This document shows positions 20,397-36,197 of a DNA stretch of 37,301 nt, in pieces (positions within the stretch are counted from its first letter, which is position 1; each line of letters opens with the position of its first letter). The position numbers were made by a program, and so were the translations under genes. The stretch comes from Bacillota bacterium (lineage in GTDB: Bacteria; Bacillota; SHA-98; UBA4971), in assembly GCA_024653485.1 (NCBI GenBank), contig JANLFY010000021.1, positions 1 to 37,301 on the forward strand, in the 5' to 3' direction. The notes below the pieces were generated by a model. That model ran no database searches. It was not told the DNA's origin and saw nothing but the letters and a program-made list of their open reading frames with translations.

Positions 20397-20406
20397 TAGT
20401 ATACTA
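20397..20406. promoter_or_regulatory. palindrome TAGTATACTA, possible metal-regulator site
   Basis: A perfect 10-bp AT-rich palindrome lies in GC-rich DNA, 111 bases upstream of feoA and 55 bases upstream of the btu promoter -35 box. It contains TATACT on the minus strand, which could be a feo -10 box, but no matching -35 box is found at the proper distance. Binding by an iron-responsive regulator is inference. Confidence 0.35.
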
Positions 20407-20460
20407 TGAAGTCCCGAACCGGATCGGTGTCTGAGCGGGCGCACTTTGCGAGGCGTGCCG

Positions 20461-20489
20461 TTGTCACGCGGCCTGGTGAATGGTAAAAT
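20461..20489 (+). promoter_or_regulatory. sigma-A type promoter of the btu-cobO operon
   Basis: TTGTCA at 20461-20466 and TAAAAT at 20484-20489 are separated by exactly 17 bases. Transcription would begin near 20496, about 30-35 bases before the conserved start of the cobalamin riboswitch. Confidence 0.7.
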
Positions 20490-20529
20490 ACAGGGGGATG
20501 CGACATCAAGGTGCGTCCAGAACCGACGA

Positions 20530-20752
20530 ACCTGGTAGGTGCCCCATGCGGGGAGAATAGGGAAGAGGCAGCGGGGTTGGCCCCGCAAGCCCGCGGTTCC
20601 CGCCACTGTACCCGGGGAGCGGTCTCGCACAGCCACTCCAGACTACGTCCTATAGGTGGTCCACCGGCTAAGGTGCACCAGGCGAGGACGACGCTGGGGG
20701 AAGGCGCGAGGCGTGCGCGAGGATCCGGAAGCCAGGAGACCTGCCTGCCAGC
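20530..20752 (+). ncRNA. cobalamin (B12) riboswitch
   Basis: Adenosylcobalamin-type aptamer in the leader of btuF. Conserved elements in order: GGTGCCCC near 20538, the core TAGGGAAGAGGCAGCGGGG near 20558-20575, AAGCCCGCGGTTCCCGCCACTGTACCC near 20587-20613, GCCACTCCAGACTACGTCC near 20632-20650, and the B12 box GGAAGCCAGGAGACCTGCC near 20727-20745. It sits between a good promoter and genes for B12 uptake and adenosylation, which is the expected feedback target. High intracellular cobalamin should lower expression. The expression platform is described separately. Confidence 0.93.
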
Positions 20753-20762
20753 GTGACCTTGC

Positions 20763-20832
20763 GCCTTCGGTGAAAGGGAGTGGCAGGTTGTGCTCTCAGT
20801 GAGCGCAAGGGCCCCGGCCGAAGGCCGGGGCC
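20763..20832 (+). promoter_or_regulatory. candidate riboswitch expression platform (two exclusive hairpins)
   Basis: A perfect 10-bp GC stem (GGCCCCGGCC at 20810-20819 and GGCCGGGGCC at 20823-20832, loop GAA) lies just after the aptamer. The segment GCCTTCGG at 20763-20770 is exactly complementary to CCGAAGGC at 20818-20825, i.e. the loop and inner stem of that hairpin. The two pairings cannot coexist, which is the arrangement of a terminator/antiterminator or sequestration switch. No T-run follows the GC hairpin, so the control may be rho-dependent or act on translation. Confidence 0.5.
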
Positions 20833-20905
20833 TCGCCGTGCTGGCATGGGCGTGGTGCACCGGCCATGGGAGAGGTCGAACTACCGGAAAGGGGGCCAAG
20901 ACATC

Positions 20906-21853
20906 GTGGCTGCGTCAATTGGGGGTTTGGTTCGGAGGACGAGGAAGGCTCCGAGCGGATTCGGTCTTATGGCGGTCACCTTGTTGACACTATTAACGTT
21001 AAGCTTCACGGTTTTCGAGTGCCACGCGTCGTCGACCGGCAACGCCGTCACCATCACGGACGACCTCGGGAGGCGCGTCACCTTGCCGCGCGTGCCTGGG
21101 CGCATCGTCTCCATAGCCCCGAGCAATACCGAGATTCTTTTCGCCCTTGGCTTGGGAGAGAGGATCGTGGGCGTTACGGACTCCTGCGACTACCCGGCGG
21201 AAGCGAAAAACAAGCCCAAGGTCGGTGCGGTCCAGCTCGACTACGAGAGGATAGTAGCGCTGCATCCGGACCTGGTCGTAGCCGTCGGGAGTCTTCAGCG
21301 GCAGGCCGTGACCAAGCTCTCGGATCTCGGCATCACTGTCCTGGCCGTGGACCCCAAGAGCGTGGATGGAGTCCTGCGAGCCATATCACTCATCGGCAGG
21401 GCCACAGGCGCGGAGGCGAGGGCATCAGAGGTAGTGAGGGAACTCTCAGCCCGGATGGACAGGGTCTTACGCAAGCTCAGCGGGGTAAAGGAGTCGGATA
21501 GGCCGCGCGTCTTCGTGGAGATCTGGAACGAACCTCTCATGACCGCCGGAAAGGGAACTTTCATCGACGAGCTGGTCTTTGCGGCGGGCGGCCTGAACAT
21601 CGCGAGGGATGCCCCTGGGGAGTGGCCGGAGTTCAGCGAGGAGGCCGTGATAGAGCGCGATCCCGACGTAGTGATCTTGACGAATTTCAACAGGGCGGAG
21701 GCCCTGGCGCGTCCGGCGTGGCAAGGGATATCTGCGTACAAGACCGGGAGGGTGTACGAGGTCAATCCCGACGTCTTGGTGCGTCCCGGACCCCGGCTCG
21801 TGGACGGGCTCGAGACTCTGGCGGCTCTTCTCCACCCCGCGTTGTTCAGGTGA
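20906..21853 (+). CDS. btuF: cobalamin ABC transporter substrate-binding protein
   Basis: 315-residue exported binding protein of the BtuF/FhuD fold that delivers B12 to the BtuC/BtuD transporter. A basic N-region (RRTRK) and hydrophobic core (about residues 22-36) form a signal sequence or anchor. No clear lipobox is seen. Mature protein begins with VTITDDLGRRVTLPRVPGRIVSIAPSNTEILFALGLG, the hallmark of the family, and contains PEFSEEAVIERDPDVVIL near 245-262. GTG 20906 with AAAGGGGG upstream is chosen. The frame is open back to GTG 20780, but that start lies on top of its own purine-rich stretch and would put the riboswitch hairpin inside the coding region. ATG 20846 is another option. Confidence 0.82.
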   Translation: MAASIGGLVRRTRKAPSGFGLMAVTLLTLLTLSFTVFECHASSTGNAVTITDDLGRRVTLPRVPGRIVSIAPSNTEILFALGLGERIVGVTDSCDYPAEAKNKPKVGAVQLDYERIVALHPDLVVAVGSLQRQAVTKLSDLGITVLAVDPKSVDGVLRAISLIGRATGAEARASEVVRELSARMDRVLRKLSGVKESDRPRVFVEIWNEPLMTAGKGTFIDELVFAAGGLNIARDAPGEWPEFSEEAVIERDPDVVILTNFNRAEALARPAWQGISAYKTGRVYEVNPDVLVRPGPRLVDGLETLAALLHPALFR

Positions 21854-21960: not shown

Positions 21961-23109
21961 ATGAGATCAAGGCGGCCGGCTAGGTGCGGTAATGACCGAA
22001 TTGCGCATTCAGGCAAGCCCGGAGAGGACGGGTCAGCGCCGCAGCGCTCCCGCCTATGGATGCAGCCTGGATGGAGAGCCGCCCATCTGCCCGCTCTCTG
22101 CGTCGGCCTTGCGATCGTCATGTTGATCGCCGCGGGCACGGGCAGCGTGCGAATTCCACCAGATGAGGTCGCTGGGATTCTGCTCGCGCGATTGCCGCTA
22201 GGCTTGGGCCGCGATCCTTCGTCTGGGCCTTCGTGGCCGGAGTCTCACGAGGTCATCCTTCTCCAGGTGCGCCTGCCCCGAGTGCTCTTGGCTGCCATGG
22301 TGGGCGCTTCCCTTGCGACCGCCGGCGCAGCGCTACAAGGTCTTCTCCGAAACCCACTCGCCGACCCGTACGTGGCGGGTGTGTCGGCGGGGGCGGGTCT
22401 CGGCGCAACTGTCGCAATGGTCATGGGAGTGCCCATCTCCGTGCTTGGAGTGGGCCCCGTCCCCATCCTGGCCTTTCTCGCTGCGCTTGCCACAATGGCG
22501 CTGGTGTACTCCCTCTCGCAGGTATCCGGCAGGCTTCCCACTGACACGTTCCTGCTTGCGGGCGTCGTGGTCGGGTCCTTCCTCTGGGCCGCCATCTCGT
22601 TCATTCTGGTCGTGTCAGGCGACACCATGCGCGAGGCGATGATGTGGCTCATGGGGAGCCTTTCGAACAAGGGTTATGCACACGTCAGGATGGCCTTCCC
22701 TTACATGACGGCGGGGATGGCGGCGCTCATCGTGCTCGCGCGCGACTTCAACCTCATCAGCCTGGGAGATGAAGAAGCGCGTTACCTCGGCCTCAATCCT
22801 GAGGAGTTCAAGCGCGTGGCGATACTTGCCGCGTCCCTCGTCACGTCCGCCGCTGTCTCGGTTGGAGGAATCATCGGGTTCGTGGGGCTCGTGGTCCCTC
22901 ATTCGGTCAGGCTGGTATTAGGACCGGACCATAGGGTTCTCATGCCGGCATGCGCAGTGGTGGGCGCGGGTTTCCTGGTCGTGGCCGACACCCTCGCGCG
23001 TTTGGTGGTGGCGCCGGGGGAGATCCCCGTGGGGGTGATCACCGCCCTCGCGGGCGGGCCGTTCTTCCTGTACCTTCTCAGGCGCCGGAAAACGTCAGGG
23101 GTGTTGTAG
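21961..23109 (+). CDS. btuC: cobalamin ABC transporter permease
   Basis: 382-residue FecCD/BtuC family permease with about ten transmembrane segments. Typical sequences are VRLPRVLLAAMVGASLATAGAALQGLLRNPLADPYVAGVSAGAGLG (about 103-147) and GGIIGFVGLVVPHSVRLVLGPDHRVLMP toward the C-terminus, which includes the coupling helix region. An N-terminal hydrophilic stretch of some 40 residues precedes the first helix, longer than usual. ATG 21961 has GGGAGGGAGG eight bases upstream, which decides the start within a much longer open frame. The btuD start follows the stop after two bases. Riboswitch control and the cobO neighbour favour cobalamin over siderophores as cargo. Confidence 0.88.
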   Translation: MRSRRPARCGNDRIAHSGKPGEDGSAPQRSRLWMQPGWRAAHLPALCVGLAIVMLIAAGTGSVRIPPDEVAGILLARLPLGLGRDPSSGPSWPESHEVILLQVRLPRVLLAAMVGASLATAGAALQGLLRNPLADPYVAGVSAGAGLGATVAMVMGVPISVLGVGPVPILAFLAALATMALVYSLSQVSGRLPTDTFLLAGVVVGSFLWAAISFILVVSGDTMREAMMWLMGSLSNKGYAHVRMAFPYMTAGMAALIVLARDFNLISLGDEEARYLGLNPEEFKRVAILAASLVTSAAVSVGGIIGFVGLVVPHSVRLVLGPDHRVLMPACAVVGAGFLVVADTLARLVVAPGEIPVGVITALAGGPFFLYLLRRRKTSGVL

Positions 23110-23111
23110 CG

Positions 23112-23909
23112 ATGAGGCTGGAAGTGTTCTCCGTAAGCTGCGTGTACGGTATAATAACGGCGCTGGACCAAGTATCCGTTTCAGTGTGCGGAGGCGAGTT
23201 CGTGGGCGTGCTCGGCCCGAACGGGTCCGGCAAGACCACTCTCATTCGGGCGATGGCGGGTGCGCTGCGTCCATCGAGGGGCAGGGTGACCCTCGACGGA
23301 CGGGACATCCATACGATGAGCGCGAAGGCCGTTGCCCGTCAGCTTGCGGTCGTCCCACAGGATGGGTACACGCCCTTCTCTTTTAGCGTGCGGGACATAG
23401 TGCTCATGGGCCGCTGGGCTCACCTTGGGAGGTTCTCAGGGGTGACTGCGGGCGACGTGGAGGCCGCGGTCCGGGCAATGGAGGCGACACGCGTCGCCCA
23501 CTTGGCGGGCCGGCCCATCACTCAGCTTTCGTACGGGGAGAGGCAGCGAGTCATGGTGGCGCGGGCGCTCGCGCAGGAACCACGGATCCTGCTCCTGGAC
23601 GAGCCCACATCCCACCTCGACCCTAGGCACCAGGTGGAGGTGATGGACCTCGTGTGGGGTCTCTCGAGGCGAGAGGGCCTCGGCGTCGCAGCGGTGTTGC
23701 ACGACGTGAATCTCGCCGCTCAGTACTGCGACAGAATAGTGATGTTGAAGGACGGGCGTCTCGTGGCGTCCGGGACGCCCCGCGAGGTGGTTGCGGCGAG
23801 AGTGATAGAGGAAGTATACGGGGTGCCGTGTTGCGTCACCTCACACCCCGTGAACGGTCGACCTCAGGTGCTGTTGGCGTCCCAACTCGCGCCTTCCGAG
23901 CCGGTGTGA
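23112..23909 (+). CDS. btuD: cobalamin ABC transporter ATP-binding protein
   Basis: 265-residue ATPase of the FecE/BtuD group. Walker A GPNGSGKTT (35-43), Q-loop VVPQDGYTPFSFSVRDIVLMGR, signature LSYGERQRVMVARALAQ, Walker B ILLLDEPTSHLDP and switch histidine VLHDVNLAAQYCD are all intact. The ATG lies two bases after the btuC stop, and the purine-rich end of btuC serves as ribosome binding site. A short variable tail of about 25 residues follows the canonical end. It works with BtuC and BtuF for B12 import. Confidence 0.9.
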   Translation: MRLEVFSVSCVYGIITALDQVSVSVCGGEFVGVLGPNGSGKTTLIRAMAGALRPSRGRVTLDGRDIHTMSAKAVARQLAVVPQDGYTPFSFSVRDIVLMGRWAHLGRFSGVTAGDVEAAVRAMEATRVAHLAGRPITQLSYGERQRVMVARALAQEPRILLLDEPTSHLDPRHQVEVMDLVWGLSRREGLGVAAVLHDVNLAAQYCDRIVMLKDGRLVASGTPREVVAARVIEEVYGVPCCVTSHPVNGRPQVLLASQLAPSEPV

Positions 23910-23958: not shown

Positions 23959-24618
23959 GTGGTGAACCCAGACGCTTGCCCGAGAACGGTCCAAGAGAGG
24001 GAGGCGCGCTGCATGACATGCGCGACATCCGGGGCGTTCGCCGGGGGGTTCGTCCAAGTGTACACCGGCGATGGCAAGGGCAAGACGACGGCAGCCCTTG
24101 GTCTCGCTCTGCGCGCGGCGGGACACCGCTTCCGCGTGGTGATCATCCAATTCGCGAAAGGCGCAAGTTATACGGGGGAGTTATTCGCTCTGGAAAGGCT
24201 TTACCCGGAGGTCCGCGTCTTCCAGTTCGGACGCGACTGCCGCAGGGCGTCGGCGGTCAGGCAGGGCTTAGAGGACTGCGCGGGGTGCCTGGAGTGCTTC
24301 CTGCAAGAAGGCGAGGTGACCCCGGAGGATCGGATCCTTGCCAAGAAGGGCTTGGCGATGGCGCAAGACGTGGCCTCAAGGGGTCTTGCTGACATCCTCA
24401 TCCTGGACGAGATCTCCATCGCCATTCGACTCGGCCTGGTTGAGTTGGAGGAGGTTCTCAGGCTCGTCGACGGAAGGAGCCAAGGCATGGAGCTAGTGCT
24501 GACGGGTAGGGGGATGCCAGAAGAGGTCCTCGCTCGCGCGGACCTAGTCACCGAGATGCGACTGGTGAAACACCCGTTCGAGAAGGGCGTGAGTGCCCGC
24601 CGGGGCGTGGAGTTCTAG
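23959..24618 (+). CDS. cobO: cob(I)yrinic acid a,c-diamide adenosyltransferase
   Basis: 219-residue CobO/BtuR/CobA-type ATP:corrinoid adenosyltransferase, making adenosylcobalamin from imported corrinoid. P-loop TGDGKGKTTAALG lies at about 36-48. Further family segments are VIIQFAKG, YTGELFALERLYP, a Walker-B-like ADILILDEISIAIRLGLV (about 142-159) and the C-terminal LVTEMRLVKHPFEKGVSARRGVEF. The N-terminus before the P-loop carries three cysteines (7, 18 and 21) that are not part of the core fold. GTG 23959 is preceded by GGGAGGGG at seven bases. It is the last gene of the riboswitch-controlled operon, a position that fits salvage of imported B12. Confidence 0.92.
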   Translation: MVNPDACPRTVQEREARCMTCATSGAFAGGFVQVYTGDGKGKTTAALGLALRAAGHRFRVVIIQFAKGASYTGELFALERLYPEVRVFQFGRDCRRASAVRQGLEDCAGCLECFLQEGEVTPEDRILAKKGLAMAQDVASRGLADILILDEISIAIRLGLVELEEVLRLVDGRSQGMELVLTGRGMPEEVLARADLVTEMRLVKHPFEKGVSARRGVEF

Positions 24619-36121: not shown

Positions 36122-36197
36122 TGGTGCGCCTAGCAGGACTCGAACCTGCGCACCCGGCTCCGGAGGCCGGCGCTCTGATCCTCTGAGCTATAGGCGC
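36122..36197 (-). tRNA. tRNA-Arg (anticodon CCG)
   Basis: Complete cloverleaf of 76 bases on the minus strand: acceptor GCGCCTA/TAGGCGC, D stem GCTC/GAGC, anticodon stem CCGGC/GCCGG with loop CTCCGGA (anticodon CCG, reads CGG), variable GTGC, T stem GCAGG/CCTGC with loop TTCGAGT, discriminator A and an encoded CCA. CGG is a common arginine codon in this GC-rich DNA. Confidence 0.95.

Follow-up and report, generated by a model that had tools for sequence, protein, structure and literature searches.

A cobalamin riboswitch leader of a Bacillota bacterium in which loop L5 and the apex of a terminator-like hairpin without T-run may compete for the L13 kissing bases

In published cobalamin riboswitches, loop L13 kisses loop L5, whose consensus is UCCCG (PMC10653944); this contact and its bulge are documented in two sources (PMC10653944; PMC10907184), and dependence on the kissing loop has been published for other members of the class (PMC10653944). 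In the metE riboswitch of Priestia megaterium (PMC10653944), the functional kissing bases are CCG/CGG, the kissing loop steadies the P13 hairpin, P13 favours the terminator and B12 represses; a structured region lies between P13 and the terminator, and the antiterminator, which uses the 3' side of P13, is computed to be stabler than P13. In the activating cobT riboswitch of Alkalihalobacillus halodurans, P13 also competes with the terminator but shares bases with it and acts as the antiterminator, the ligand thus turning the switch on (PMC10653944). The metE riboswitch of Mycobacterium tuberculosis, a GC-rich host, has a kissing loop and no T-run terminator, probably terminates transcription prematurely, masks a translation start and involves upstream open reading frames (uORFs) (PMC11260477). 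Moreover, intrinsic terminators of B. subtilis with interrupted U-tracts still terminate with the help of NusA/NusG (PMC8060035). How ligand binding is transmitted to the terminator of cobalamin riboswitches has been called unsettled; the type of model proposed in that source failed for one riboswitch of S. ovata, and further mechanisms likely remain (PMC10653944). We describe here a cobalamin riboswitch leader, located upstream of a btuFCD-cobO operon, in a stretch of 37,301 nucleotides from a Bacillota bacterium (assembly GCA_024653485.1, contig JANLFY010000021.1, positions 1 to 37,301 of the forward strand), hereafter the window.

The element is a member of the known cobalamin riboswitch class with a variant of the expression platform, and would be expected from its sequence to bind a corrinoid and to change expression. 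It is composed of the following parts:

20520 to 20762, plus strand: cobalamin riboswitch aptamer RF00174 (67.6 bits, E 9.2e-15, gathering score 31.5).
20532 to 20540, plus strand: 5' strand of P1, CUGGUAGGU, which pairs with 20743-20751 and is kept in relatives.
20598 to 20602, plus strand: kissing-loop segment UCCCG of L5, identical (GGUUCCCGCCAC) in 12 of 13 leaders of the family.
20756 to 20788, plus strand: P13 hairpin, with a lower stem (20756-20762/20783-20788) and an upper stem (CCUU 20764-20767/AAGG 20774-20777).
20763 to 20770, plus strand: putative antiterminator strand GCCUUCGG, made of the P13 5' strand and three kissing bases of L13.
20768 to 20773, plus strand: L13 loop CGGUGA, whose CGG and GA can pair with UCCCG of L5, U20771 being bulged.
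20788 to 20808, plus strand: intervening hairpin UUGUGCUC/GAGCGCAA, -10.7 kcal/mol.
20810 to 20832, plus strand: terminator-like hairpin GGCCCCGGCC-GAA-GGCCGGGGCC, with 10 perfect GC/CG pairs, a GAA loop, -23.6 kcal/mol and no T-run.
20818 to 20825, plus strand: apex of this hairpin, CCGAAGGC, exact complement of GCCUUCGG and its candidate partner in the antiterminator.

The locus shares with RF00174 riboswitches an aptamer above the gathering score, a B12 box, a UCCCG-type L5, a P13/L13 hairpin after the aptamer and a B12 uptake operon downstream. The aptamer is the sole match in its genome and is ordinary except for an insertion of ~50 nt in a peripheral helix, as judged from the RF00174 alignment. 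The original prediction had placed a B12 riboswitch from 20530; the riboswitch is there, its match beginning at 20520 and P1 at 20532. Since L13 reads CGG-U-GA and is complementary to UCCCG of L5 through five pairs and one bulge (a matter of sequence complementarity only), the 8-nt segment singled out by that prediction combines the 5' strand of P13 with the kissing bases of L13, whose role as partner of L5 it had missed. GGGAG (20776-20780) was considered as the kissing partner and dropped, as CGGUGA better fits the published UCCCG/CGG pattern. L5 and L13 are unchanged in 12 of the 13 family leaders (UCCCG with CGG-U-GA). The thirteenth, L037, is the second cobalamin riboswitch of its genome (G006) and has both loops altered yet still matching (CCCCUG with CAGUGGG), so that compensation has arisen naturally between its kissing partners. 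Because its platform differs, L037 was left out of the family set, which thus counts 12 leaders.

The claimed exact complementarity between 20763-20770 (GCCTTCGG) and 20818-20825 (CCGAAGGC) is borne out letter by letter, and an additional U.G pair (20771-20817) extends the antiterminator to nine pairs. When 20752-20809 was shuffled 20000 times with its dinucleotides preserved, 91 of the shuffles (0.5%) contained an exact 8-nt complement across the loop. As GCCUUCGG includes the L13 bases that should kiss L5, L13 can pair either with L5 or with the hairpin apex. As in P. megaterium metE, a structured region separates P13 from the terminator, and the antiterminator is computed to be stabler than P13 (-10.7 versus -5.5 kcal/mol, the terminator reaching -23.6), but here it is the 5' side of P13 together with L13 that matches the terminator apex; between the P13 3' side and the terminator 5' side, the longest match in the window is 3 nt. 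The competition between P13 and the terminator recalls A. halodurans cobT, although the two share no bases here, and M. tuberculosis metE has in common with this leader a GC-rich host, a kissing loop, the lack of a T-run terminator and probable premature termination; no masking of a translation start comparable to the one there was found at this locus. When the growing chain is folded, the antiterminator has the lowest energy while the 3' end lies at 20825-20827, and from 20829 onwards the terminator does.

The aptamer, the conserved segments, their mutual exclusivity and the T-runs found behind the same hairpin in relatives are all computed observations. We consider it probable that the leader switches off transcription of the btuFCD-cobO operon, that a single segment of it serves two partners and that the hairpin is a decayed intrinsic terminator. 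For the ligand, the sign of the response, the co-transcriptional order, the direction of T-run loss and the agent of RNA release, we infer the following course. When adenosylcobalamin or a related corrinoid is bound, L5 (20598-20602) would capture L13 (20768-20773) and steady P13; GCCUUCGG being occupied, the 10-bp hairpin 20810-20832 would complete and RNA polymerase would stop. In the ligand-free state, P13 would be weak and GCCUUCGG would pair with the apex CCGAAGGC as it emerges from the polymerase, which would block the hairpin and let the operon be transcribed. P. megaterium metE resembles this course in that its kissing loop steadies P13, P13 favours the terminator and B12 represses. 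The ancestor of the hairpin would be a usual intrinsic terminator that lost its T-run by decay in this genus, and the hairpin would probably still terminate with the aid of a pausing factor (NusA/NusG) or of Rho. The helped terminators of B. subtilis are comparable in this respect, but their tracts are still rich in U and the base of their stem is often weak (PMC8060035), whereas the present hairpin has a strong stem and 2 T in 8.

Each of five further genomes of the genus has one cobalamin aptamer, and both GCCTTCGG and the hairpin are retained in 6/6 same-genus leaders, identical or G.U-equivalent (L033 and L034 have a single G.U pair in the hairpin stem), and the alignment collapses within ~10 nt 3' of the hairpin. 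Outside this genus, seven leaders were found in the family, of which six were used as the sister-genus sample. There, the hairpin occupies the same position, likewise with P13 and an intervening hairpin, the latter of another sequence (read by eye). Its tails are ATTTTTT in L038, TTTTGTTTT in L039 and CTCTTTTT in L042, so that a U-tract directly follows the stem in leaders such as these, and are decayed in L041 and L043. This same-place hairpin with a T-run or decayed tails places the element in a series of attenuator terminators, and the absent T-run may be read as the derived state. Among the 12 family leaders, the antiterminator makes 8/8 pairs in seven, 7/8 in four and 6/8 in one; when the partner is slid by one column, the share of cells that pair falls from 93.8% to at most 62.5%. 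The attenuator-like mutual exclusion of the two folds put forward earlier thus gains from both genera. P13 is paired in 100% (lower helix) and 97.9% (upper helix) of cells, with one-sided changes only, and the terminator stem displays two-sided changes at two pairs.

Two other identities of the hairpin were dropped. A repeat element does not fit, the hairpin core being single-copy in the genome (one palindromic site at which both strands match); nor does a leader peptide, as one frame across the hairpin seemed open in a number of relatives, yet its stop codons lie at unrelated positions and conservation is lacking 3' of the hairpin. In L041, positions ~714-935 after the terminator hairpin resemble a group II intron (RF02001 at 803-935, 25.4 bits for a gathering score of 32); as btuF comes directly after it, this stretch looks like a remnant.

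The same pairing was sought more widely in 121 Bacillota leaders, namely the window, 20 from one set and 100 picked by hand from a longer listing. From the 109 outside the 12 family leaders, 10 without T-run terminator in the scanned stretch were dropped, leaving 99, and then 20 without P13-like hairpin, leaving 79 (earlier versions of the test with a stricter B12-box pattern had 78 and 65 leaders). In a loop-centred register, GCCUUCGG makes at least 7 pairs in 2 of these 79 unrelated terminators, matches of at least 7 in any register not being rare (30/79). In the 79 leaders, the mean pairing energy of P13-5'/L13 with the terminator apex of the same leader is -5.64 kcal/mol versus -4.25 for permuted partners (sd 0.21; 0/5000 permutations), and with one leader per genome (36) the z-score is -4.3 to -6.8. 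Two crossed controls exhibited no enrichment in this set (p 0.67 and 0.31), and the metE-type pairing of the P13 3' side with the terminator 5' arm was enriched too (p 0.0082). The test is suggestive of the L13-apex design being one of several in Bacillota. A further reading, less likely than not, is that the L13 kissing bases themselves are the antiterminator, L5 and the apex competing for them, that many unrelated Bacillota cobalamin riboswitches share this arrangement, and that in this genus it drives a terminator hairpin that functions without T-run. A recurring platform, present at many loci such as L130, L131, L171, L174 and L198, has GGATGATGG and then AAAGTCC at the terminator start; the complementarity of GGA and TCC suggests that it may be an antiterminator of another class.

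Several observations weigh against these proposals. A GC-rich hairpin is present in the window but a U-tract directly 3' of its stem is absent: the tail TCGCCGTG has 2 T in 8, those of the same genus have 2 to 5, and a terminator scan of 20400-21000 returned no T-run terminator, which agrees with the perfect 10-bp GC hairpin lacking a T-run described earlier. The energy window of the antiterminator is only ~4 nt wide, so ligand-free read-through would hang on kinetics. The original prediction was to fall if homologous leaders kept the aptamer and lost the alternative pairing, and L038, with just 6/8 pairs, goes part of the way. Regarding the co-variation of the two stems that it had called for, the terminator stem has its two-sided changes, but the antiterminator helix has zero pairs with a two-sided compensatory change among family leaders and a covariation score no better than shuffles (278/500). 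The antiterminator is therefore supported by conservation and register, not by covariation, and the mechanism stays inferred. In the wider test, a reversed-segment control was slightly deviant (p 0.019, 79 leaders), pointing to some composition effect. A replicate from other genomes was weaker (p 0.0074, 27 leaders), with its reversed control at p 0.038 and z of -0.87 to -2.41 for one leader per genome; in this replicate, no enrichment of the metE-type pairing was seen (p 0.74, 27 leaders). The replicate started from 56 loci, two loci of an already used genome having been excluded beforehand, and 29 of these were removed, 22 because no B12 box was recognised and 7 because P13 was missing. Its first run, faulty in that most minus-strand loci were lost, had given p 0.17 with 15 leaders.

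Around the riboswitch, the following features were recognised:

20461 to 20489, plus strand: candidate sigma-70-type promoter TTGTCA-17-TAAAAT (10/12 consensus matches; 1 found versus a shuffle mean of 0.1).
20891 to 20897, plus strand: Shine-Dalgarno-like (SD) AAGGGGG for btuF, from the sequence.
20906 to 21853, plus strand: btuF-like binding protein (PF01497, 122.4 bits), with a likely start at GTG 20906.
21985 to 23109, plus strand: btuC-like FecCD permease (PF01032, 309.7 bits), start putative.
23112 to 23909, plus strand: btuD-like ABC ATPase (PF00005, 111.9 bits), start putative.
23959 to 24618, plus strand: corrinoid adenosyltransferase BtuR/CobO (PF02572, 189.4 bits).

The Pfam search covered these four operon proteins; as they comprise a periplasmic binding protein, a FecCD permease, an ABC ATPase and a corrinoid adenosyltransferase, the operon is one for B12 uptake. 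The hairpin ends 73 nt before GTG 20906, in agreement with the ~70 bases predicted. A comparable TTG...TARAAT spacing is seen by eye in five same-genus leaders, and P1 of L034 has one G-C pair replaced by A-U (read by eye). Elsewhere in the window, a tRNA gene (RF00005, 69.2 bits) lies at 36125-36197 on the minus strand.

Among the other explanations, Rho-dependent attenuation, already suggested by the original prediction, is possible but on balance unlikely. The hairpin would then release no polymerase; Rho would terminate in or after the leader in the B12-bound fold, and the GC hairpin would be the stable 3' end left after trimming. The genome does encode rho (1.8e-203), Rho is believed to act at the B12 riboswitches of mycobacteria (PMC11260477), and E. 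coli hairpin ends without strong U-tract have been interpreted as trimmed Rho products (PMC13289151). Moreover, strong intergenic hairpins of this genome show little T enrichment, with 2.21 T per 8 positions behind gene ends versus 2.0 in the opposite direction (29 hairpins, ~437 kb), although rough gene calls were used and the hairpins are too few for a genome-wide claim on T-less terminators. However, no C-rich, G-poor loading stretch follows the hairpin, the 74 nt up to the start having 26% C and 41% G; the window of highest C/G (78 nt) lies inside the aptamer, 256 nt upstream of the hairpin end, and the C-richest window is downstream only in L032 among five leaders examined. Rho would also leave unexplained the conservation of the hairpin loop as complement of P13/L13 and the T-runs of the sister genus.

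Quite improbable is a static structure or chance match, with regulation through P1/anti-P1 pairing alone. Indeed, ACCUGCC (20739-20745), at the aptamer 3' end, can form seven pairs with GGCAGGU (20782-20788) of the P13 3' strand at -10.1 kcal/mol, which would break P1, P3 and P13, and shuffling does yield an exact 8-nt complement to the apex at the 0.5% given above. Nevertheless, L034 (ACCUACC) no longer has the anti-P1 complement, nor do sister-genus leaders with a differing P13 3' strand, whereas the pairing of P13/L13 with the apex is kept in both genera. As a separate observation, anti-P1 pairing in the window could also open P1 in the free state.

A translational switch, in which the hairpin or P13 governs ribosome access to btuF as offered earlier for the hairpin, is very unlikely: the P13 3' strand AAAGGGAG (20773-20780) is SD-like, the corresponding place of L046, from another family, stands directly before a start (read by eye) and the btuF frame is open upstream as far as GTG 20780, but the hairpin ends ~57 nt before the SD with no switch helix found to cover SD or start, chosen starts of relatives lie 69-305 nt past the hairpin, the hairpin-to-gene sequence is unconserved and frames across the hairpin stop differently among relatives.

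In L046 and L139, both from that other family within the class, an AAGGAG-ATG start comes directly after the P13 hairpin, which is the arrangement of a translational cobalamin riboswitch. The beginning of the encoded protein is reminiscent of a ribonucleotide reductase.

The leader would thus be a platform variant coupled to an unusual T-poor terminator. We found no description of an L13-apex antiterminator in a search limited to open-access literature, and do not claim that none has been published. For a subset of cobalamin riboswitches, L5 and the terminator apex directly contesting L13 would be a simple, testable answer to how binding reaches the terminator, and within the family the T-run behind a single conserved hairpin is lost by degrees.
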